34,665 bases of DNA from Candidatus Brocadia sapporoensis (GCF_001753675.2 NZ_MJUW02000081.1:1-34665); one strand, 5' to 3'; counted from the first letter of the stretch, positions 199 through 15,780 are shown. Notes: generated from the letters alone by a model not told the origin. A program made the numbers and translations.

Positions 199-238
199 AA
201 AAAAAGGCTTAATCCGTTTTCTGGATTAAGCCTTTTTT
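199..238 (-). terminator. Rho-independent terminator closing the minus-strand gene run
   Basis: A perfect 10-bp stem, GGCTTAATCC (206-215) pairing with GGATTAAGCC (223-232), encloses a 7-nt loop. It is flanked by a run of A on the left and T on the right, so it has a U-tract when read in either direction. It lies about 30 nt beyond the stop codon of the octaheme cytochrome gene. It should therefore end the long minus-strand transcript and may also stop any plus-strand transcript entering from the left. Confidence 0.9.
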
Positions 239-269: not shown

Positions 270-1919
270 TTATTCAACCAGGCATTTCTCGCCTTCATGC
301 TTGCATGCAGCCTTGTCTACATCGCCCGGTTTTCTTTTCCAACCCAAGAGCATATCCGTATATTCGCCGTGCTTCCAGAAGTCATAAGCCTTGTGTTCTA
401 TGCCTACCTGATTCTCAAGTGCCTTGAACCTTCTTAACCGGCTTGCCTCACTCTTTATCTGGATAAGCCAACGATCTTGCAAAAAGGCGCCTTTTCCATA
501 CGTGGCGCCATACATCGCTCCATGAGCCATAGCCTTGTACACGGCGTTGGTTATATAGACCAGCATCTCAAAGGATGTACGTTCTATGTCAGAAACGTTG
601 TACATCCTGCCTTCACCACCTAACAGACTGAAGGTATAGTGTCCTGCATAGTCTGGGGCTAAGTCATTCGGCATGGGGTCCAGCATGCCGTCATTATAAA
701 GATCTACCACGATCTTCATGGCCTCACGCCATTTGGTAAAGCTTATCTTTACGGCCTCATCCATAGCCTCAAATTGATCTGTCGCCCATCGGGGTGAATG
801 ACAACCCTTGCAGGTATCAACCCAATTCTGCCTGGCCTCTTTAAACCTTGGCGCCCCCCGGTCAACAAGCGCGGTACCCATATGACTGTTAATCGTAGAG
901 GCTTTCTGAGCATTATGTTCCCCATCTTTCATATGACAATAGGCGCAGGTGGGGGTTTTGTAATTTGCGGGTTTCATAGGTTTTGTCCAATCCCAGGTGT
1001 GCTGCTCTGATTCATAAATCATTCCATGATACGATTCTTTATACATCTCATATTCATAATGATCCAAACCCGTGTGACAAATACCGCAGTTATTGGGTTT
1101 TCTGGCCTCTGCCAGAGAAAAGTCATGCCGTGTATGACAACCGTCACAACGATTCTCCGCTATGCCATGACACGTGGCGCAGGCCGTCACTTCTGCAGCC
1201 GGCTTTGCTATCTGCCACGGTGTTTCCACTATGCTTACATGGAAAGCATACGTATGGGAGCCAAATTTGCCAGCACGGTGGCCATTTTTTTGTTCGGGGT
1301 GGCACTCGCCACAATGCCGCCAGGAAGGCATATAGAGTTGCTGATGATTATTCCCGTGGCATTTATCACAACCCACTATGCCCTTTTCCGCGGTTGCATG
1401 TTTGCTTTTTTTCCACTGCGCAACGATACCTGGTGTTTGTACCATATGACACATAACACATTCTTCATGCTTAAACTCTCCGGAAACGTTTAAGTTTGGA
1501 GTATAGTAATGATCGGGGTCATACCATCGGATAAGAGGTAAAAACCCAAACAGTTTCCCAAATTTACCCTCACCTGGCAGTAGTTCTTCTGGCGGTGTGT
1601 ACGTTGCCGTTAAACCACCGTGGTATAGATCTCCTGAATTATCAGGGCCAATCTTTTCGCCAGTTATTTCAGAGATAATTTGTTGAATAGTCCTCTTGTC
1701 CTTCGGATGAGGCGCCATTTCTTCTTTCTTTACAGGACGAGGAGCAGGCGTCTCTACCCTTGCCACTTCTTCCGGCTTAGCCTGAACTTCTTTTTCTCCT
1801 GCCTGTTTAATAGTAACGGCTTCTGTTTTTTTCACAGCCTGCTGTTCGCAGCCAAACTGGATACAGCCAAACAGGGCAAATACACCCATAAGGGTCACAA
1901 TTCTTGTCCCCTCGCTCAT
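270..1919 (-). CDS. Octaheme hydroxylamine oxidoreductase (HAO)-like cytochrome c, predicted lipoprotein
   Basis: The 549-residue protein has eight CxxCH heme-binding motifs, at residues 154, 184, 203, 247, 258, 278, 325 and 370, followed by about 175 residues without heme motifs. That is the arrangement of the HAO family of multiheme cytochromes, which interconvert hydroxylamine, NO, nitrite or hydrazine. The N-terminus is a short hydrophobic segment ending in a lipobox-like LFGC (C19; a second candidate is QFGC, C24), so it is probably exported and lipid-anchored. A charged, proline-rich linker of about 60 residues follows. The first heme motif lies unusually far in (154). HAO enzymes that oxidise carry a tyrosine cross-linked to the catalytic heme. 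Y461, Y470 and Y474 are possible positions here, but only an alignment can tell. The start has AAGGAG 8 nt upstream. It is the last gene of the run, 82 nt after the DUF2249 gene. The family is certain; the reaction direction is not. Confidence 0.92.
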   Translation of the reverse strand: MSEGTRIVTLMGVFALFGCIQFGCEQQAVKKTEAVTIKQAGEKEVQAKPEEVARVETPAPRPVKKEEMAPHPKDKRTIQQIISEITGEKIGPDNSGDLYHGGLTATYTPPEELLPGEGKFGKLFGFLPLIRWYDPDHYYTPNLNVSGEFKHEECVMCHMVQTPGIVAQWKKSKHATAEKGIVGCDKCHGNNHQQLYMPSWRHCGECHPEQKNGHRAGKFGSHTYAFHVSIVETPWQIAKPAAEVTACATCHGIAENRCDGCHTRHDFSLAEARKPNNCGICHTGLDHYEYEMYKESYHGMIYESEQHTWDWTKPMKPANYKTPTCAYCHMKDGEHNAQKASTINSHMGTALVDRGAPRFKEARQNWVDTCKGCHSPRWATDQFEAMDEAVKISFTKWREAMKIVVDLYNDGMLDPMPNDLAPDYAGHYTFSLLGGEGRMYNVSDIERTSFEMLVYITNAVYKAMAHGAMYGATYGKGAFLQDRWLIQIKSEASRLRRFKALENQVGIEHKAYDFWKHGEYTDMLLGWKRKPGDVDKAACKHEGEKCLVE

Positions 1920-2001
1920 CTCCTTTTCTCCTTTTCTTCAACCATGTTTGATGAGAATAAACCGTATATTTAAAACCTTCGGAACAACGAGTACCGGCTC
2001 T

Positions 2002-2238
2002 TTATTTCTTTGTTATCTCCACCTTCCAAACTTCAGGCCCTTGTTCAACGTATTTCCAGTCCAATTGTCCGCTCCGTTCTGCATCTAACTGATACTTTAA
2101 GGGTTTGGGGTCATGGTCATTTATAAGGATCATCATTTCACCTTTTTTCAGACCGTCAAACGTATTAAATATTTTTGGGTGCCTTTCTCTGGGTACGATA
2201 CTTCTCACATCGAGAACAATGGATGGTGTCTTACTCAT
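2002..2238 (-). CDS. DUF2249 domain protein
   Basis: This 78-residue protein opens with the LDVRxIxPRERHPKIF pattern typical of DUF2249 and carries its NDHDPKPL motif near residue 41. DUF2249 proteins are small, soluble and of unproven function. In many genomes they sit beside denitrification, NO-response or hemerythrin genes, and a TusA-like fold has been suggested for them. A good ribosome binding site (AAAGGGAG) precedes the ATG. It lies 24 nt after the cupin gene and 82 nt before the octaheme cytochrome, so co-transcription with both is likely. A role in nitrogen-oxide metabolism is inferred from the neighbourhood only. Confidence 0.8.
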   Translation of the reverse strand: MSKTPSIVLDVRSIVPRERHPKIFNTFDGLKKGEMMILINDHDPKPLKYQLDAERSGQLDWKYVEQGPEVWKVEITKK

Positions 2239-2262
2239 ATCTCTCCCTTTTTTTCATTTAAT

Positions 2263-2565
2263 TTATCCTACGCTAATAGCCAAAACTATCATTCTTTCTA
2301 CACACTGCATACCTCTAAGTGTTCCCTCGGGAGCAATGATAACCATGTCCTTTTTCATATCAATTTTTTTATCTCCGAGAGTAAATACCCCTTTCCCTTC
2401 TTTTACGTAAAAAATACCCACGCTTTGTCCACCATGGGGCGGAATTTCTTGTCCGGGCTCCATACAAATAAGCGGCATTTTTACCTTTGGCGAAGCGTAA
2501 AGAATATTTGGAATAAAGTGTTCTTTGTTAAATTTAATTTTGTTTTCTAAATATATCGGCTCCAA
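2263..2565 (-). CDS. Small single-domain cupin
   Basis: The product has about 100 residues with a double-stranded beta-helix pattern. The motif PPHGGQSVGIFYVKEGKG matches cupin motif 1 in a reduced form, with one clear His and one Glu, and is followed by GDKKIDMKKDMVIIAPEG in place of motif 2. The incomplete metal-ligand set means a metal site is possible but not assured. I prefer the TTG start at 2565 because AGGAGG lies 10-12 nt upstream. A GTG at 2586 in the same frame lies within or before that ribosome binding site and would add 7 residues. It sits between the DUF1858 and DUF2249 genes. Cupins in such contexts are often sensors or small-molecule binders; the ligand is unknown. Confidence 0.75.
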   Translation of the reverse strand: MEPIYLENKIKFNKEHFIPNILYASPKVKMPLICMEPGQEIPPHGGQSVGIFYVKEGKGVFTLGDKKIDMKKDMVIIAPEGTLRGMQCVERMIVLAISVG

Positions 2566-2617
2566 GGTATAAACGCACCTCCTCACTAATATTCATGCAA
2601 TAGGTAAGGTTATTTCA

Positions 2618-2671
2618 GGATGACAGGAACATTACTAAATGTCATCCGAAAACAACAGAGACTCGAGTCTC
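2618..2671. repeat. Intercistronic inverted repeats between cupin and DUF1858 genes
   Basis: Two separate dyads lie in the gap of about 130 nt. GGATGACA at 2618-2625 pairs with TGTCATCC at 2640-2647 across a 14-nt loop. GAGACTCGAGTCTC at 2658-2671 is a perfect 14-bp palindrome with no loop. Neither is followed by a T-tract in the minus direction, so they are not classic terminators. They could be an mRNA processing or stabilising structure, or an operator for the promoter-distal three genes. Confidence 0.5.
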
Positions 2672-2696
2672 CATTACAATAGAGAACTGATGATTC

Positions 2697-2927
2697 TTAC
2701 GGAATCTTGCTTGTCTCTTTTTGAGCTGCTTCATTTAGTTCTTTCACGAATTTATCAACATCCGTGTTATGCATCATACATGCGAGGTTAATGTCTTCTG
2801 TGCCAAAAGAAGGACAATCGAAGCATCCTTTTCCGAAATATTTTGTAAAAACTGCTTTCGTTGCAGGATATTTCTTTGTTACCTCACCCGTGCTCATTTT
2901 CTTTGTGATGTGAATTTCGTTGTCCAT
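2697..2927 (-). CDS. DUF1858 redox-disulfide domain protein
   Basis: The 76-residue protein matches the DUF1858 / 'hybrid cluster protein-associated redox disulfide' pattern. It has the opening ITKKMSTGEVTKKYP, a GCFDCPSF motif (C35 and C38) and a third cysteine in LACMMHN (C50). Members are small soluble proteins thought to carry a reactive disulfide or bind a cofactor. They often accompany hybrid cluster protein, NO or nitrite reductases, or hemerythrin. AGGAGG precedes the ATG at good spacing. The gene lies 36 nt after the radical SAM gene on the same strand. The domain call is confident. Its partner here, either the radical SAM enzyme or the octaheme cytochrome, is inferred. Confidence 0.82.
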   Translation of the reverse strand: MDNEIHITKKMSTGEVTKKYPATKAVFTKYFGKGCFDCPSFGTEDINLACMMHNTDVDKFVKELNEAAQKETSKIP

Positions 2928-2963
2928 ATTTTTCCTCCTGTAATGATAGAGAGCGTTAAAATA

Positions 2964-4205
2964 CTATCCTACCCCTGCAAGGGTGATTTCCTGATCGGCA
3001 AGTTCGACAGGCGCGATATCTTCTATTTTTACCGGTAACCGCACATTCTTTGGAAGCGGATCAATATATTTTTTCCGGTATGCCTTGCTTTGCATACGGC
3101 AGGTGGGGTACCGCTTGCTAAAGTCAGGATGCGTTACCATTTTCTTCCAGATTTCCTGAATGGGCATGTCACGCACATTCCCGAAATTGATCGGGTTAAA
3201 ATCACAGGGATTAATATCGCCGTATGCCGTCATATAAAATTGTGACTGTGCTCCATAACAACCCACACCACGCGGTGAATTGATAATCGACATACAATTG
3301 ATTCCCATAGGATGGTTCATTTCATGATACTTTTTCGTCAGGGCAATTAATTGTTTCCGGTCTTCTGCCGTTAATATCTTCGATGTGTCCTTCAAGAACC
3401 GACCTGATGGAATACAATCAAAAATCGTTACCTCTGAAAATCCCTGTTCCTGTGCGATTTTTAAGAGTTTTTCAACCTTTCCTGTCTTGATGCTTTCGCC
3501 GGTTGCATAAGTAGAAATCCCCGTCAAGATGCCCGCCTTGCGGCAACGTTCTGCTCCTGCAAAGGCTTTCTGATAGCATCCTGGCACCGCTCTGAACTCA
3601 TTGTGCAGTTCAGGTTCACTGCTATCTATAGAGATATTTAAGGAAAAGAGCCCTGCCTTAGCAAGTTTTTGGACATTCTCTTCGGTAAGGAGCAATCCAT
3701 TAGTAAAAATCATAGAGATTGCCTTGGTTTTATCCACATAGTGAATAAGATCGTAAAGCTCTTCACGGAGCATGGGTTCTCCCCCTACGTAGATAACGAG
3801 GCTTGCACCAAGATCTAATGCACCATCAACTACGGTCTTTATTTCCTCTACTGTAAGCTCTTTTTTTGCAGGATCAATAAAAGGATCTGCACTACAATGA
3901 ATACACTGACACTGACATTTATGGGTAATGGCTAAATTCGCCGTAACAGGGAATGCCATCTTATACAGCATCATTCTCAACTTTCGTTCAAGAAATCTCA
4001 TACCTGCCTGACTGGGAAATGGTGGATTGTACAGGTTGTAAACGTGCATACCCTGAATATTAGCAATTACCTTTAAAGAATTAACTTTTTCAAAAAACTG
4101 ATCCACGTAAGGTTGCAACATTTTGCCCAATACTCCTCCGGCCTTTCCTGCAATTTTACCCTCACGAATCTCAGCGTCGATATGTAAAAAATCGAACGAC
4201 GTCAT
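2964..4205 (-). CDS. Radical SAM protein with C-terminal SPASM/twitch-like cysteines
   Basis: The 413-residue protein has a CxxxCxxC [4Fe-4S] motif at C97, C101 and C104 (HKCQCQCIHCSA), with an extra cysteine at 99. GGEPMLR is the usual SAM-binding GGEP element. The C-terminal third holds GVGCYGAQ, NPCDFNP and PTCRM, three cysteines that resemble a twitch or half-SPASM site for an auxiliary cluster. That suggests modification of a peptide, protein or small molecule of the MoaA/PqqE/heme-maturation type. About 90 residues precede the core and look helical. Its ATG overlaps the stop of the dehydrogenase gene as ATGA, so it is translationally coupled to the lipid A block, yet the genes after it are redox genes. 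The substrate is unknown. It is not the AmmeMemoRadiSam enzyme type by position or architecture. Confidence 0.85.
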   Translation of the reverse strand: MTSFDFLHIDAEIREGKIAGKAGGVLGKMLQPYVDQFFEKVNSLKVIANIQGMHVYNLYNPPFPSQAGMRFLERKLRMMLYKMAFPVTANLAITHKCQCQCIHCSADPFIDPAKKELTVEEIKTVVDGALDLGASLVIYVGGEPMLREELYDLIHYVDKTKAISMIFTNGLLLTEENVQKLAKAGLFSLNISIDSSEPELHNEFRAVPGCYQKAFAGAERCRKAGILTGISTYATGESIKTGKVEKLLKIAQEQGFSEVTIFDCIPSGRFLKDTSKILTAEDRKQLIALTKKYHEMNHPMGINCMSIINSPRGVGCYGAQSQFYMTAYGDINPCDFNPINFGNVRDMPIQEIWKKMVTHPDFSKRYPTCRMQSKAYRKKYIDPLPKNVRLPVKIEDIAPVELADQEITLAGVG

Positions 4206-5245
4206 AATTTGTCCTCCCTACTCTTTGCATTGTGGATTAATTTGAGATTTTTTTCTATTTCGCACACAATATCATTTGCGACCTCAATAGCCTTTAATCC
4301 TTCTTCTCCCGAAACAACAGGCTCTTTGCGTCCTACAACACAATCAACAAAAGAGCTGAGTTCCTTTTTTAGTGGTTCACAATCATCCATTTTTATATGC
4401 TCCACTTTTAATAAGTCACCAAACACATAACTTTTCAAATCGGCAATGGTTGAGACATCCATTTCAGAAAAATTTAAAGCCTTTAACGTCAACTTGGACG
4501 ATTTTTTATATATTAATGCATCCCTTTTCTGATAATCAATAGAAATATATGAATCCTCAGAGAACAATCTCATTTTACGCATCGATGTAATTGATACCCG
4601 ACTCGCGGTAACATTCGCTACACAACCGTTCTGGAATTGGATACGGACGTTTGCAATGTCCTCTTTATCAGAAATGACATTTACTCCCACGGCATCAAAT
4701 TTTTTTATCTTTGACCCCGTTACGTGCAGGATTATATCGATATCATGGATCATCAGATCAAGCACCACACCGATATCTGCAGAACGAAAGGTAAACGGAC
4801 TCAAACGGTGGCACTCAATAAACCGAGGATTGATTGCGAGTTTTTTTATCGCATCTATTGCAGGATTAAACCGCTCAATGTACCCTGCCTGAAGCACGAC
4901 TCCTTTTGTTTTGCTCATAGCAATTAAATCCTTCGCCTCCTGTACTGTGCCTGTCATGGGTTTCTCAATCATGACATGAATTCCGTTCTGAAGAAATTCT
5001 TTTGCTATAGCGTAGTGGGATTTTGTAGGAACTGCTATGCTCACAGCCTCTACCTGGTCAATCACCTCCTTATAGTTTGAAAAATATCTCGTATGGTAGC
5101 GCTGTGCAATTTTCTCTGCTTGCTGAGGCTGGATGTCAACGACCCCAACCAGAGACACCCCTGGCAGTTCCGCATAAATTCTTGCATGCTCCTTTCCCAA
5201 ATGACCAACGCCAATTACCGCAACCTTTAAATCAGACATAATCAA
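4202..5245 (-). CDS. Gfo/Idh/MocA family dehydrogenase, GnnA-like (lipid A context)
   Basis: A Rossmann NAD(P) site (VAVIGVGHLGKEHA) opens the protein, followed by the family EKP motif (HVMIEKPM) and the catalytic-domain motif DIGVVLDLMIHDIDI. The same type of gene sits between lpxA and lpxB in several Gram-negative bacteria. In Acidithiobacillus, GnnA of this family oxidises the 3-OH of UDP-GlcNAc so that GnnB can aminate it, giving a diamino lipid A. Here the gene overlaps lpxA (TTGA: TTG start at 5245; an ATG at 5239 is an alternative) and the radical SAM gene (ATGA). No GnnB-type aminotransferase is present in the window. UDP-GlcNAc as substrate is inferred from context; another UDP-sugar is possible. 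Confidence 0.78.
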   Translation of the reverse strand: MIMSDLKVAVIGVGHLGKEHARIYAELPGVSLVGVVDIQPQQAEKIAQRYHTRYFSNYKEVIDQVEAVSIAVPTKSHYAIAKEFLQNGIHVMIEKPMTGTVQEAKDLIAMSKTKGVVLQAGYIERFNPAIDAIKKLAINPRFIECHRLSPFTFRSADIGVVLDLMIHDIDIILHVTGSKIKKFDAVGVNVISDKEDIANVRIQFQNGCVANVTASRVSITSMRKMRLFSEDSYISIDYQKRDALIYKKSSKLTLKALNFSEMDVSTIADLKSYVFGDLLKVEHIKMDDCEPLKKELSSFVDCVVGRKEPVVSGEEGLKAIEVANDIVCEIEKNLKLIHNAKSREDKL

Positions 5246-6135
5246 GTTGCCATTGCCGCCGGGTATCGAAAAGCCTCCCGATACCTTCCGAACTTACCCT
5301 TGTCGATATTTTTCAGAAAGGTAACCAGATACATGACCTCAGGAGAAACATCTTTATTATCTTCCAATGCTTCCAAGATATTTCTCCTGTTCAATTTGCC
5401 TGAACGGAATATTTTACGAAACGCCTTTTTGATTTCATTAATTTGCCCTTTTGAAAATCCTTCCCTCTCTAATCCAATGACGTTCACCTGACGTATCTTT
5501 GCAGGGTGACCTTCGATAATCATATACGGCGGGACATCCTGAACAATCCTGGTATGGCCTCCTACATAAGCATATCGACCAATAGTCACAAAAGGTTGTA
5601 TACCTACAAGCCCCATTAGCTTGGCACATCTTTCTACCGCAACGTGTCCGCCCAGGAGCACCCCATTTGCCAAAAGCACATTATCCTCGATAATGCAATC
5701 ATGAGCAATGTGCGAATACGCCATGAAAAAATTATTATTGCCGATTACCGTTTTCTCACCGCCTCCAGCCGTACCTTTGTTAATGGTTACACCTTCCCTT
5801 ACCACATTGTTGTCCCCCATGATTAGGGAAGTTCGCTCACCACGATATTTTAGATCCTGCGGTTCAGCCCCCAAAATAGCATTAGGGTGAACAATATTGT
5901 TTTTCCCGATGACCGTAATACCTGCTACAGTAACATTGTTCCTTATAACAGTTCCTTCTCCAAGCGTAACGTCTTTGCCGATTATACTATAAGGGCCAAT
6001 TTCTACCTCTTTGCTCAAAACAGCATCCGGGTGCACAATAGCCGATCTGTGAATCTTCAACCTGTTTCCTTTTTTGTAAATTTCCAATACTTTTGCTCTT
6101 TTCTCATTGCCACGCAATAATTCTTTTCGAATCAC
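5242..6135 (-). CDS. lpxA: UDP-N-acetylglucosamine O-acyltransferase
   Basis: This enzyme catalyses the first step of lipid A synthesis: transfer of an R-3-hydroxyacyl chain from ACP to UDP-GlcNAc, in the cytoplasm. The sequence shows the left-handed beta-helix hexapeptide repeats from about residue 28 to 210, the family motif GAEPQDLKYRGE (89-100) and the catalytic-base region HIAHDC (H142/H145, equivalent to E. coli H122/H125). The C-terminal helical domain follows. At 297 residues it is longer than the usual 255-265 because of about 27 basic residues before the first repeat. The GTG start overlaps the lpxC stop (GTGA), which supports the long form through translational coupling. The GG pair of the acyl-length ruler region (YVGGH) is retained; acyl length cannot be read from this. 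Confidence 0.95.
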   Translation of the reverse strand: MIRKELLRGNEKRAKVLEIYKKGNRLKIHRSAIVHPDAVLSKEVEIGPYSIIGKDVTLGEGTVIRNNVTVAGITVIGKNNIVHPNAILGAEPQDLKYRGERTSLIMGDNNVVREGVTINKGTAGGGEKTVIGNNNFFMAYSHIAHDCIIEDNVLLANGVLLGGHVAVERCAKLMGLVGIQPFVTIGRYAYVGGHTRIVQDVPPYMIIEGHPAKIRQVNVIGLEREGFSKGQINEIKKAFRKIFRSGKLNRRNILEALEDNKDVSPEVMYLVTFLKNIDKGKFGRYREAFRYPAAMAT

Positions 6136-6986
6136 AGATTGTTTACAATCATTTCTGCTAACCGAACATTCAACGAATGCCCGGACCTCTTTGCAATAAT
6201 ACGTCCCTGGATAACGACATTAGCCAAATAAAGATCCCCTATCAGATCTAAAATCTTATGTCTTACCAGTTCACCGGGAAATCGCAATTCTGCAGGTCTC
6301 TGAGAAACTGGTTTTGTCATTGTACCATCTTCATGCACCATGATACTATTTTCATCAGTAACCCCTTTCCCCAAACCAAGCCGCCTGAACTCTTCGATAT
6401 AGGTACTTAACCCAAACGTCCTTGCTGATGCAATTTCCCTGCAAAAACTTTCTTCTGTAACCTCAATATCATACGTTTGTTGCTGAAGAAAGGAATTGTT
6501 AAAATCCAAAGTATATGACAATGCCAATCCTTTTTCGTAAGGAATTGCCAAAATACTTGCATTTCCGTTGTTAACCCCCATGGGTTCTTTGACAACAAAA
6601 ACCTTCTTTACGCCGCCCAGATCAACAACCTCCGCTTTTTTCAGAATTTCAACAAAAAGCTGTGCACTCCCATCTCCCGCCGGAACTTCGCTGCCATTTA
6701 TTTCAATTTCGATATTATCAATTCCTAACCCTGCCAAGGCCGCCATAAGATGTTCTACGCACTCAACCTCTGCATCCCCGCGTTTGAGAAATATGCGCCG
6801 GTAGTTGCTTGATAAAGAGCCAACGTGCGCAGAAATCCTTGGTCGATTTGGTAAATCAACACGAACAAACGATATCCCACTATTTAACAACGCAGGCTTA
6901 AAATGAAGCGTTGTATTTTCCCCCCGAAACATTCCGATACCGGCGCATCCAATTTCCTGCCCGATCGTTTTTTGCGTATTGACCAC
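6132..6986 (-). CDS. lpxC: UDP-3-O-acyl-N-acetylglucosamine deacetylase
   Basis: This zinc enzyme performs the committed deacetylation of lipid A synthesis. Zinc ligands and catalytic residues are visible: ECVEHLMAAL with E78 and H79 (same numbers as in E. coli), the HKxxD motif at H243 and D247, and the general-acid region SGHSLN with H270. Its length of 284 is close to the stand-alone family (about 300). It is not fused to FabZ, as happens in some other phyla. The start is GTG, with AAGGG about 10 nt upstream, 3 nt after the skp stop. Together with lpxA and bamA it indicates a genuine lipid A-containing outer membrane. Confidence 0.95.
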   Translation of the reverse strand: MVNTQKTIGQEIGCAGIGMFRGENTTLHFKPALLNSGISFVRVDLPNRPRISAHVGSLSSNYRRIFLKRGDAEVECVEHLMAALAGLGIDNIEIEINGSEVPAGDGSAQLFVEILKKAEVVDLGGVKKVFVVKEPMGVNNGNASILAIPYEKGLALSYTLDFNNSFLQQQTYDIEVTEESFCREIASARTFGLSTYIEEFRRLGLGKGVTDENSIMVHEDGTMTKPVSQRPAELRFPGELVRHKILDLIGDLYLANVVIQGRIIAKRSGHSLNVRLAEMIVNNL

Positions 6987-6989
6987 AAA

Positions 6990-7652
6990 CTACTTTCCCT
7001 TGGTTCCTTCAGAAAATCGTTTATTCAAGTTATTGATTATCCGATTGGTAATATCCACTGAATCAGAATTATACAGGACTGTTTTGATTCCGACCTTGAA
7101 CTGCAATTCAGAAATCCCGCTACTCTGCAACTCTGGCTCTTCTTTTTTGATAATCAGATCGTATTGTTCCCGTTTCCCTATATCTTCTACTTCTTTACAT
7201 ACTTCTGTATAGAGACTTTCAAAATAGTCCTTGTACTTCTTTGCAAGACTCTTTTCTGCAAATTTCGCATACGATTCGAGCTCCATGTTTTTTTTCTCGA
7301 AGGTTTCTTCGTCTTTTTTTCTGGCCTCACTCCCGAAATCTAACAATTGTATCTTTTCGCCAAGGCTCACCAGTTCTTTTTTTCTATCTGTGACATTTTT
7401 TTGGTATTGTTTTTCTTGCTCTTTTAACTGTGCATCAAATACTTTTCTCTTCTCGTACTTTTCAAACACGGCATTTAAATCAACAACCGCCATCTTCAAC
7501 CCTTTCGATGCAGAAGCTGCTACCTCGGGCTCTTTCGCCTGAGTCGTATTCTGCAACCACGGAAACAAGCACAAAACACTTGCCACTATGCAGAGAATAC
7601 CCTTTCCCATACGTCTCTTTTTCTTAACCGTTTTCGCTACTTTCATAATCAA
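6990..7652 (-). CDS. skp: OmpH/Skp-family periplasmic chaperone
   Basis: The 220-residue protein has a basic N-terminus, a hydrophobic stretch (about 18-34) and a probable signal peptidase site near residue 39 (TQAKEP). The typical OmpH core follows: KMAVVDLNAVFEKYEK, a long coiled coil (about 68-155) and a C-terminal strand containing YDLIIKKEEPEL. Skp captures unfolded outer-membrane proteins in the periplasm and passes them to BamA, which is the next gene upstream. GGAGGT lies about 9 nt before a TTG start at 7652 that overlaps the bamA stop (TTGA); an ATG at 7646 is an alternative. The protein is longer than E. coli Skp (161), mostly at the ends. Confidence 0.88.
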   Translation of the reverse strand: MIMKVAKTVKKKRRMGKGILCIVASVLCLFPWLQNTTQAKEPEVAASASKGLKMAVVDLNAVFEKYEKRKVFDAQLKEQEKQYQKNVTDRKKELVSLGEKIQLLDFGSEARKKDEETFEKKNMELESYAKFAEKSLAKKYKDYFESLYTEVCKEVEDIGKREQYDLIIKKEEPELQSSGISELQFKVGIKTVLYNSDSVDITNRIINNLNKRFSEGTKGK

Positions 7653-10027
7653 AAACTACTACCTCCTCCAAAATTAAATGTAAATGCTTGTGTATCATCC
7701 TTGTCTTTTTTTATGATGGGAATACCATAATCAATAGATATCGTAGAGCGACCAAGAAAAGGAACATTAAATCTCAGTCCAAAGCCCGACGACAACCTAA
7801 ACCGATCAAAATTGATATCACTAATGCTTTCGTCAGCCTTTCCACTGTCAACAAAGATCGCTGCACGAACCATATCCTTATATATGGGGACAAGGTATTC
7901 CGTGCTCATCAACATCAATACATCTCCTCCGATCTGATCACCTGTTTTCTCATCAACCGGAGACACACCTCGAAAACGGAACCCGCGAATAGAACCGTAA
8001 CCACCAGCATAATATCTTTCAAATATAGGGACAACATCTCCCGAAGTCGACTTCACGATACCAAATGTTCCCCCGTAAGAAAGTACGTGTTTACCCCATT
8101 TGGGGACTTCAAAGAGGGTGTTGAATTTCGTTGCCTGAAATTTATATTTCACAATATCCACATCCAACCCTGCAACCTCTATCGAAGATTCTCCCTGGTA
8201 TCCTTTCGCCGGTGCATAGATATTATCCGTTCTGTTTATATTTGCTGACAATGTCATACCTGCTTTCAAATAGCTACCTTCTGCATCAAGGACGTCCTGT
8301 GGCGTGTTTTCCGTATCATCCCGCTTTGTAATATCGATAACATCAAATTCGGGAGTCAATTTTACAAAAAAACTTCTTTGTATTTCCCTTCCCACGGAAA
8401 CCGATGAGCCCATTTCCTTTTGCGCATACTTACGATACCACCGAAGGTAATCAAATAAACTTACCCCCGCGCTGTATGGAGAATCAAACACTGATGGATT
8501 TGTCAAAGATGCCATGATTTCCGTCCTATTAAAACCAGGGCTAAATCGTAACGTTAATACCTCACCAGCGCCACGGAAGGCATTCCCCTGCAAAAAATCA
8601 TCCCAACTTTTTGGCAAATCCGTGACGTCAAAGTTCCTGTCGGTGTAAGAAATATCTCCGAACACTCCGACGTTTGCTCCAAAACCACCACCAAAACGCA
8701 ACATTCCCGTTCGTCCCTCTTTTACATCCACCAGGACATTTTGTTTGTCAGATTCAGAGCCTTGTTCAAAGTTAATTCCGGCTGGCATTCCTGACTGCAT
8801 ATCGAAATACCCTGTATTGGTAAGTCGTCGCTGGCTATCACGGATTTTTTCCGTATCCAATTTTTCACCGGGATAAAATGTTAATTCACGACGGATAACA
8901 TTATCCCTCGTTTTATCATTTCCTGTTATCTTAATCTTTTCAATATAATACCTGTTTTTCTCTTCTATAGTAAAAAGCACATTCACCTTTGCCCCTTCCG
9001 AACTAAATGTATGCTTTTCTTTAACAACGGTTGTAATATACCCCTGTTCTCCATACATCAAACGGAGCTGGTAGGTGTCCTTCTCTACCGCGTCCAAGAA
9101 GAAGGGGCCTCCTTCTTGTAGTTTTAATTTATTCTTTAATTCCCCGTCGGTAAACAGAGCAGCGCCTTCTATGGTTAAGTTTTCAACGGAATATCTTTCA
9201 CCTTCTTTTACATGAAGGGTAATATACATCTGCCTGTCGTCATCCCTATATGCTATTTCCCACCCGACATCAACATCGAGCCATCCGTTATTCATGTAAA
9301 ATTCTTTTATCTTTTCTACATCGGCTTCAAACTTTTTTGCGTCAAATCTTCCCGGAAATATAAAGGCAGGAAATCGCTTTTGTTTGGTTTCCATCAGTTT
9401 CAAAAGCTTTCTTCGTTTGAAGCCGGTATTTCCTTCAAACGCTATCCTGGAAATACGAACCTTAGGGCCCTCATCAATGTTAAATATAACGATGGTTTTC
9501 CCATCCACGGTTTTACTCTCCGCATGTACCTGTACCCGGCTGAAACATTTTTTTATGTAAAGTTCCTTTATTTTATCTTCATCCAATTTCAGCAGATAAT
9601 ACTTTAAATAATCCCCCTTTTTCACCTCAATTTGCTTTTCCAGTTTCTTGGTTTTAATCTTTTCGTTCCCGACAAATTGTATTTCGTCAATGACAGCCCG
9701 CTCAGTTACAACAAATATAAGCTTCAGCCCGTCTTTTAGCTCTTCCAGTTCCACTTCAATATTATCAAAGAATCCCATCGACCAGATAGCATCAACATCC
9801 TGGCTTATCGTTAATGGGTTGTAGCGATCGCCTTCCTTTGCCCGAATACTGCTCTTAATCGCTGCCGGACTGATTCGATGTGTTCCTCTGATTTCAATTT
9901 TTTTAATAAATTGCACCGCTTTTTCCTGAATCTCAGCACAAAATATCACTTCACCTCTTACGCACAGAATTATAACAAGCACCGCGATGAAGCTCGTCGC
10001 TTGTAATAAAATCCTGCAAAACTTCAT
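7649..10027 (-). CDS. bamA: Outer-membrane protein assembly factor BamA (Omp85)
   Basis: The 792-residue protein has a signal peptide (1-30), about five POTRA domains (residues 41 to 440, with repeated patterns such as KKIEIRGTHRIS, IDEIQFVGNEKI and IEKIKITGNDKTRD) and a C-terminal Omp85 beta-barrel. The barrel carries the invariant loop-6 motif SIRGFRFRG, needed for folding activity, and ends in phenylalanine (GGGSSF), a typical outer-membrane C-terminus. It inserts beta-barrel proteins such as the porin encoded at 21879-23540. The ATG overlaps the dnaB stop (ATGA), and its own stop overlaps skp. Tying an outer-membrane assembly gene to the replicative helicase gene by overlap is unusual outside this lineage. 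Confidence 0.95.
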   Translation of the reverse strand: MKFCRILLQATSFIAVLVIILCVRGEVIFCAEIQEKAVQFIKKIEIRGTHRISPAAIKSSIRAKEGDRYNPLTISQDVDAIWSMGFFDNIEVELEELKDGLKLIFVVTERAVIDEIQFVGNEKIKTKKLEKQIEVKKGDYLKYYLLKLDEDKIKELYIKKCFSRVQVHAESKTVDGKTIVIFNIDEGPKVRISRIAFEGNTGFKRRKLLKLMETKQKRFPAFIFPGRFDAKKFEADVEKIKEFYMNNGWLDVDVGWEIAYRDDDRQMYITLHVKEGERYSVENLTIEGAALFTDGELKNKLKLQEGGPFFLDAVEKDTYQLRLMYGEQGYITTVVKEKHTFSSEGAKVNVLFTIEEKNRYYIEKIKITGNDKTRDNVIRRELTFYPGEKLDTEKIRDSQRRLTNTGYFDMQSGMPAGINFEQGSESDKQNVLVDVKEGRTGMLRFGGGFGANVGVFGDISYTDRNFDVTDLPKSWDDFLQGNAFRGAGEVLTLRFSPGFNRTEIMASLTNPSVFDSPYSAGVSLFDYLRWYRKYAQKEMGSSVSVGREIQRSFFVKLTPEFDVIDITKRDDTENTPQDVLDAEGSYLKAGMTLSANINRTDNIYAPAKGYQGESSIEVAGLDVDIVKYKFQATKFNTLFEVPKWGKHVLSYGGTFGIVKSTSGDVVPIFERYYAGGYGSIRGFRFRGVSPVDEKTGDQIGGDVLMLMSTEYLVPIYKDMVRAAIFVDSGKADESISDINFDRFRLSSGFGLRFNVPFLGRSTISIDYGIPIIKKDKDDTQAFTFNFGGGSSF

Positions 10028-11361
10028 TTGTTACCTACAGAAGCTAAATTCTCAAAGCGCATATATTGGGAGAGAAACGCTAATTTTATTACCCCTATAG
10101 GTCCGTTCCGCTGTTTGGCAATGATGAGCTCTGCTGTTCCGTCCTTTCTTTCAGGATCATAATAATCCTCCCGGTGCAAAAGAACGACGACATCCGCATC
10201 CTGCTCGATTGATCCCGATTCGCGGAGGTCGGACATTCTGGGTCTATGTCCTTCTCTGGACTCTACCGATCTGTTCAATTGTGATACAACAATCACCGGA
10301 ATCGACAACTCTCGGGCAAGGGACTTTAAACCACGGGAAATTACGGAAATTTCTTGTTGCCGGTTTTCAGCGCGCGGCGCTTCCATTAATTGTAAATAAT
10401 CTACTGCAACCAACTGAATATTATACTGGGCTTTCAATCTCCTCGCTTTTGCACGCACTTCCAATACGGAAAGGCCCGGCGTATCATCAATAAAAATCGG
10501 CGACTCGGAAAGCGACCCCAGCCCGTAAGAAAGATCGCTCCACTGTTTATCCTCTAAAAAACCCTTCCTTAGCTTATGTGCATCTATTCGCGCATGAGAA
10601 CAAAGCATATTCTGCGCTACTTGCTGTGCCGACATTTCCAATGAAAACAGCACAACCGGCTTCTTGTCTACCACCCCTATATGTTCAAGAATATTGAGCG
10701 CAAGGCTTGTCTTTCCCATGCTCGGTCTGGCTGCAATGATAATGAGCTCTGACGCTTGCAATCCACAGGTAAGATCGTCTAAATCGTAAAAACCGCTGGA
10801 TAATCCCGTTAATCTGTTTTGTCTATCGTGTAGATTTTCAATACGGCTAAACGTCTCTTTAAGGATTTCGTTTAGCTTTGAAGAAGCGGCATTAAACTTC
10901 TTTTGGGTAACGTCAAAGATCGCCCTTTCTGAACTATCAAGCAACTGCCCGGTATCACTAGATTCACTAAATGCTTGTTTTTGTATATCTGCTGCGACCT
11001 CGATAAGGTTTCTCTTTATCGCTTTTTCACGTACAATATTTGCGTAAAATTCTACGTTTCCTATTGTAGGAACTGCCTCTTCCAGTTCCATAAGATATTC
11101 TGTACCGCCAACCTTTTCCAGCAACGAACGCTTTTTTAGCTCTTCTCTCAGGACAACCAAATCAACCGCTTGTCCCTTGTCATAGACCTCTACAATAGTC
11201 TGATATAATTCCTGATGCGCCGTTTTGTAAAAACTGCCCTTGCTGAGTAAGGGAATGACCAGGCTTATAACTTCGTTATCCAGAAGCATTGCCCCTAAAA
11301 CACTCATTTCGGCTTCCACACTTTGAGGCAATGTGCGTTCAAGCAGAGACTCTATAGCCAT
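10024..11361 (-). CDS. dnaB: Replicative DNA helicase
   Basis: This hexameric 5'-3' helicase unwinds DNA at the replication fork. The N-terminal primase-interacting domain (about 10-110) includes LPQSVEAEMSVLGAML. The RecA-like domain has Walker A ARPSMGKTS (211-219), the SLEMS motif, Walker B VAVDYLQLM and the H4 region SDLRESGSIEQDAD. Length 445 matches the family, with no intein. It follows rplI by 21 nt in the widely conserved rpsF-ssb-rpsR-rplI-dnaB order, and its stop overlaps the bamA start. Confidence 0.97.
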   Translation of the reverse strand: MAIESLLERTLPQSVEAEMSVLGAMLLDNEVISLVIPLLSKGSFYKTAHQELYQTIVEVYDKGQAVDLVVLREELKKRSLLEKVGGTEYLMELEEAVPTIGNVEFYANIVREKAIKRNLIEVAADIQKQAFSESSDTGQLLDSSERAIFDVTQKKFNAASSKLNEILKETFSRIENLHDRQNRLTGLSSGFYDLDDLTCGLQASELIIIAARPSMGKTSLALNILEHIGVVDKKPVVLFSLEMSAQQVAQNMLCSHARIDAHKLRKGFLEDKQWSDLSYGLGSLSESPIFIDDTPGLSVLEVRAKARRLKAQYNIQLVAVDYLQLMEAPRAENRQQEISVISRGLKSLARELSIPVIVVSQLNRSVESREGHRPRMSDLRESGSIEQDADVVVLLHREDYYDPERKDGTAELIIAKQRNGPIGVIKLAFLSQYMRFENLASVGNK

Positions 11362-15706: not shown

Positions 15707-15780
15707 TGGCTACCCGGGGAGGACTCGAACCTCCAATGAGAGAACCAAAATCTCTAGTGTTACCATTACACCACCGGGTA
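15707..15780 (-). tRNA. tRNA-Gln (anticodon TTG)
   Basis: A full 74-nt cloverleaf can be folded on the minus strand. The acceptor is TACCCGG/CCGGGTA, the D stem GTGT/ACAC with AATGGTA loop, the anticodon stem AGAGA/TCTCT with loop TTTTGGT (anticodon TTG, reading CAA), the variable loop CATT, and the T stem GGAGG/CCTCC with loop TTCGAGT. The discriminator is G, and CCA is encoded at 15707-15709. It lies 52 nt beyond the ilvD stop and 226 nt before prs. Confidence 0.96.

Follow-up and report, generated by a model that had tools for sequence, protein, structure and literature searches.

We analysed a stretch of 34,665 nucleotides from Candidatus Brocadia sapporoensis (GCF_001753675.2, NZ_MJUW02000081.1:1-34665), the whole of which is called the window, and which carries near its start a cassette of five minus-strand genes centred on an HAO-family octaheme cytochrome. 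Listed against the direction of transcription, the cassette comprises the octaheme cytochrome, a HOX-like paralogue predicted to be exported (270..1919; 549 amino acids; PF13447 140 bits, Hao_C 42.7 bits), a DrpA-like DUF2249 protein (2002..2238; PF10006 104.7 bits), a small cupin (2263..2586, the conserved start lying nearer 2568; Cupin_2 35.9 bits), a DUF1858 protein with the hybrid-cluster-protein-associated redox disulfide domain (2697..2927; PF08984 46.3 bits; TIGR03980 53.5 bits, above the cut-off of 44.95), and a radical SAM/SPASM protein (2964..4205; PF04055 78.6 bits, SPASM 34.5 bits); the domain calls for all five pass the Pfam cut-offs. The initial annotation had described five same-strand genes separated by 82, 24, about 130 and 36 nucleotides and closed by one strong terminator, and the open reading frames agree with this, the third gap being 110 nucleotides from the predicted cupin start and about 130 from the conserved one. 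The intrinsic terminator behind the octaheme gene (200..238, minus strand) has a 17-pair stem with a T-run; as the hairpin is near-symmetric, the scan lists it on the plus strand. A similar hairpin is found 3' of the octaheme gene in most relatives. Promoter-like sites in the window are no more frequent than in shuffles (10 versus 9.5), and an Rfam scan of it found only a tRNA.

All five genes are thus present, but they make up only the 3'-terminal part of a longer run of same-strand genes that continues upstream with a GFO/Idh/MocA oxidoreductase distantly related to UDP-GlcNAc 3-dehydrogenase (4202..5245; PF01408 113 bits; NF040723 240.8 bits, below the cut-off of 450), an LpxA-type acyltransferase (5242..6135; Hexapep, Acetyltransf_11), LpxC (6132..6986; PF03331 274.6 bits), Skp/OmpH (6990..7652; PF03938 68.8 bits), BamA (7649..10027; POTRA repeats and Omp85) and the DnaB helicase (10024..11361; DnaB_C 359 bits, among other matches), all on the minus strand, and then with rplI, ssb and rpsF; the tRNA gene (15710-15780, minus strand) lies upstream of the run. 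The radical SAM and GFO genes overlap by 4 nucleotides (4202-4205), as they do in many relatives, and further 4-nucleotide overlaps join GFO to lpxA, lpxA to lpxC, skp to bamA and bamA to dnaB. This chain stops at the junction between the radical SAM and DUF1858 genes, where the spacing is loose (29-146 nucleotides in most genomes and 1137 in locus L024); beyond it, DUF1858 and cupin genes abut or overlap in many relatives. Since overlaps couple the genes on either side but not across this junction, translational coupling suggests that two units were joined here. The clustering itself is beyond chance, given that about 30 genomes from some ten genera of Brocadiaceae share the five-gene order.

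The distribution of the radical SAM gene in a survey of 62 Brocadiales genomes, 45 of which carry it, bears on the same division. In all 14 carriers outside Brocadiaceae, the loci of which were fetched without exception, the order is lpxA-GFO-radical SAM, preceded by lpxC, skp and bamA where the contig extends far enough, and none of the other four cassette genes follows it. Distant planctomycetes (L128, L132) show lpxA-GFO-lpxB-radical SAM at 52-56% identity, the LpxB of L128 being identified by Pfam. Conversely, genome G031 (one contig of 4.4 Mb, from a Kuenenia-like genus) lacks the radical SAM gene and retains the HAO together with the DUF1858-cupin-DUF2249 set, hereafter the trio. Because of this lpx context without cassette genes and its absence from the HAO-keeping G031, the radical SAM gene is, on comparative grounds, an envelope-operon gene outside the HAO module, and the trio is by the same measure a module separate from it. 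That the enzyme might nevertheless modify the HAO protein or its heme is highly improbable: it adjoins the trio in 31 Brocadiaceae genomes and its highest hidden Markov model scores are to the heme-synthesis enzymes AhbD (159.7 bits) and NirJ2 (137.3 bits), but these fall far short of cut-offs of 500, the protein being below the cut-off for every equivalog model listed, and its distribution across the order and in distant planctomycetes largely refutes the model. The role as an HAO accessory that the initial annotation had envisaged for it was accordingly abandoned. Likewise, a dedicated HAO maturation operon was rejected, since the radical SAM and small genes do not accompany HAO in all lineages. 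A combined literature search for HAO paralogues and radical SAM proteins returned no match. Dropping this gene from the module forestalls a mistaken hunt for an HAO maturase. As a side result, the radical SAM/SPASM and GFO pair (window 2964-5245, minus strand; L128, L132, L133) is tied to lpxA, lpxB or lpxC in several planctomycete lineages, and this uncharacterised radical SAM enzyme and its partner possibly catalyse a reaction in the synthesis of lipid A or the envelope that has yet to be described.

The octaheme protein has a hydrophobic N-terminus and keeps all eight CxxCH motifs. Its best matches are the HAO-like chain 6t5e (606 bits) and HOX (4n4j, 602 bits), followed by HDH (6hif, 410 bits), and it scores 438.7 bits against the hydrazine dehydrogenase equivalog NF052343, for which more than 900 is needed. 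Its Y474 falls opposite Tyr467, the residue of Nitrosomonas HAO that is cross-linked to heme P460, and among the rows of its clade in which this site is covered the tyrosine is missing only from L090. In our tree this clade unites Brocadiaceae with two g21/g22 genomes, with a support of 80, which is not strong, and lies near the HAO-B clade and sequences from f3 but separate from HOX and HDH. To the HOX-type protein encoded by the window's own genome the octaheme protein shows 57% identity. In the naming of Okubo, HAO4 groups with HOX and HDH as an oxidative subclade and is absent from Scalindua (PMC12758564). Our clade shares this absence, and its Kuenenia-type orthologue has the 591 amino acids reported for kusta0043 of K. 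stuttgartiensis; from tree, distribution and length we infer that the octaheme protein is of the HAO4/kusta0043 type. Within the region of its N-terminal 75 residues (window 1695-1919), the N-terminus is lipobox-like (FGC) in Brocadia and Jettenia, though not in Kuenenia, and a variable linker of 50-100 residues comes after this N-terminus; the enzyme may therefore be membrane-anchored in some genera only.

The trio shows a persistent linkage to this enzyme. The DUF2249 gene adjoins the octaheme HAO in 30 of the 31 Brocadiaceae that carry that HAO, and the trio-HAO block is retained while the gene past the terminator varies from genus to genus, with at least six variants. Outside Brocadiaceae the DUF2249 gene occurs in 14 genomes, mostly with cupin and DUF1858 genes. 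In two of them, the Scalindua-type G049 and G058, the trio lies directly behind a different HAO paralogue, belonging to the HAO-B clade. As G048 and G057 encode relatives of this paralogue with no trio next to them, the second pairing is probably independent and the association would have arisen twice. The gene-neighborhood survey that the initial annotation had called for thus divides its proposal: the trio accompanies this HAO, whereas the radical SAM gene follows the lpx operon.

Elsewhere in Scalinduaceae a class I/II aminotransferase gene is convergent to the trio, and dnaA, dnaN and gyrB lie on its other side in several genomes. One genus group of Brocadiaceae has an aminotransferase gene of the same type 3' of the HAO (the loci for the two settings together are L092, L104, L105, L123, L027 and L042), a hint that the trio originally resided beside this gene. 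Jettenia-, Kuenenia- and Loosdrechtia-type genomes (L031, L033, L034, L036, L043, L088, L089) have a second cupin, about 33-40% identical to the first, between the cupin and DUF2249 genes; the window genome has none. In f3 (L120, L122, L135) a 160-residue protein contains a DUF1858 domain 65-67% identical to that of the window and lies near a gene for a DUF4438-type protein (L122, L135) or near dnaA (L120), with neither cupin nor DUF2249 gene. Planctomycete DUF2249 loci from outside Brocadiales (L152-L156) are short and added little.

One pointer to the function of the trio is the DUF2249 protein, which over 70 amino acids is 70% identical to DrpA, the DUF2249 protein encoded directly behind the nar operon of Thermus. 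It is a single domain that has the conserved histidines of the RHPKIF and NDHDP motifs; its top-ranked fold match is TusA/SirA-like, a weak one (E = 0.03) obtained with a moderate structure model (pLDDT 76.6). The DUF1858 protein has an invariant CFDCP motif and a third cysteine, and in the alignment of the cupin, which is modelled with a pLDDT of 94.6 and gave no plasmid match, one cysteine and one histidine are invariant and the canonical metal motif is incomplete. None of the three has a hydrophobic N-terminus or signal peptide, unlike the octaheme protein. In Thermus, DrpA and DrpB, the latter a DUF1858-DUF2249-DUF2249 protein, are required for nitrate-dependent expression; once drpAB is lost, the expression of NarG no longer depends on nitrate, and roughly one tenth of the nitrate reductase activity remains (PMC6282519). 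Further relatives have a comparable context: all four DUF2249 proteins of Haloferax mediterranei are induced in denitrification (PMC11218638), a DUF1858 gene of Bradyrhizobium diazoefficiens falls within the NnrR regulon (PMC6710368), and in Shinella DUF2249 genes are found between nor and nirK genes.

The complete genome G033 offers a natural variant. Here the HAO gene has relocated beside a cytochrome b and Rieske pair, while the trio and the radical SAM gene have stayed in place; at its new site (L090, 9573-11255) it is convergent with the genes for the Rieske protein and a cytochrome b with c-type domains. The relocated HAO, on a long tree branch, lacks exactly the cross-link tyrosine (AHGAMQGAA-GNGPF versus AHGAMYGATYGKGAF). 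As a single case, this agrees with a tie between the trio and the form of the enzyme that has the tyrosine, and it raises the possibility of an oxidative-to-reductive switch inside Brocadiaceae.

Starting from the observed gene order with its distribution and breaks, the 70% match to DrpA, Tyr474 and the invariant cysteines, we propose that a housekeeping and envelope operon ending in bamA-skp-lpxC-lpxA-GFO-radical SAM gained at its 3' end, in the ancestor of Brocadiaceae, a nitrogen-oxide unit in which genes for DUF1858, cupin, in some genomes a second cupin, and DUF2249 precede that for an HAO paralogue. The exported octaheme enzyme, presumably located on the anammoxosome side, would most likely oxidise hydroxylamine or a related nitrogen compound, because its nearest relative is HOX and the cross-link tyrosine is kept. 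The trio proteins, most likely cytosolic because they have no signal peptide, would by homology to DrpA and DrpB sense a nitrogen-oxide or a thiol/redox signal and adjust how strongly the linked HAO system is expressed or how active it is. To this reading as a whole, two joined units with a Drp-like sensing or accessory module coupled to an HAO paralogue, we assign a probability of about one half. More tentatively, the trio could be a split, cupin-extended Drp-type module serving as the dedicated sensor or partner of the tyrosine-cross-linked HAO class, which senses the load of nitric oxide, nitrite or hydroxylamine, tunes the enzyme, and has been paired independently with two related HAO paralogues.

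Several observations weigh against the proposed coupling. The Brocadiaceae arrangement is one inherited event, so that its 30 genomes are not 30 observations, and the independent support for the linkage consists of one further small lineage. No HAO is seen alongside the trio in 12 of the 14 genomes outside Brocadiaceae, some of whose contigs are short; among these are the other Scalinduaceae, in which it lies near dnaA or the aminotransferase gene. The genomes of g21 and g22 have an HAO of this clade but not the complete trio, and the same applies to a related HAO in f3. The match of the DUF1858 protein to Thermus DrpB is marginal in a two-sequence comparison (E = 0.02), and DrpA is periplasmic despite having no signal peptide (PMC6282519), which makes the cytosolic site of the trio uncertain. 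The initial annotation had named as adverse to its proposal the finding of the four genes mostly away from any HAO; this is the situation of the radical SAM gene, and half that of the trio.

Such observations give some room to the alternative that trio and HAO are independent passengers, which landed once behind a strong housekeeping operon and share its transcription with no functional link. One ancestral event could account for every Brocadiaceae genome, the trio of other Scalinduaceae is found by itself near dnaA and the aminotransferase gene, and HAO relatives without it are found in f3 and g21. We nonetheless consider this explanation doubtful, as it does not anticipate a second HAO-trio pairing with a different gene order in G049 and G058, a downstream flank that breaks repeatedly where the trio-HAO block does not, or the recurrence of DUF2249 and DUF1858 relatives in nitrogen-oxide gene clusters and regulons. 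Of the service to HAO that the initial annotation had ascribed to the small proteins, the linkage survives, while their maturing, protecting or passing electrons to the HAO active site appears unlikely. The linkage to HAO paralogues, the poorly active nitrate reductase of drpAB mutants, which puts a maturation role for the family on record, and the coincidence of tyrosine loss with departure from the locus in G033 would suit such a role; however, the small proteins have no signal peptides and the HAO is exported, HOX and HDH of the same cells keep the tyrosine with no linked trio, and f3 and g21 genomes have a tyrosine-bearing HAO with no full trio, which also weakens the trio as an obligatory cofactor-maturation set. 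The DrpA match, the nitrogen-oxide context of the relatives and the lack of hydrophobic N-termini together make it more likely that the trio acts in the cytosol as an accessory sensing nitrogen oxides or redox state than that it matures heme.

If the proposed coupling holds, the link between one HAO paralogue and a DrpA-like module provides a testable candidate regulator of hydroxylamine and nitric oxide chemistry in anammox, and it bears on the question of what most HAO paralogues of anammox bacteria do. By comparison with known systems the trio-HAO module appears moderately novel. With HOX (kustc1061, 4n4j) and the HAO-like 6t5e, the octaheme protein of the window shares the octaheme architecture, a P460-type tyrosine, predicted export and scores above 600 bits; it differs in its separate clade, its longer N-terminal linker, lipobox-like in Brocadia, and its gene neighborhood. 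AhbD and NirJ are, like the protein encoded at 2964..4205, radical SAM enzymes with a SPASM domain and provide its top-scoring models, but it scores only 137-160 bits against them and belongs to an lpx-operon context. The DUF1858 protein passes the TIGR03980 cut-off; no hybrid cluster protein is found among the neighbor genes examined. A further parallel is DrpA/DrpB of Thermus thermophilus, with which the locus has in common the DUF2249 identity and the placement of DUF1858 and DUF2249 beside a nitrogen-oxide enzyme gene; however, the fused domains of DrpB are replaced by separate genes with a stand-alone DUF1858, cupins are added, and the linked enzyme is HAO rather than Nar.

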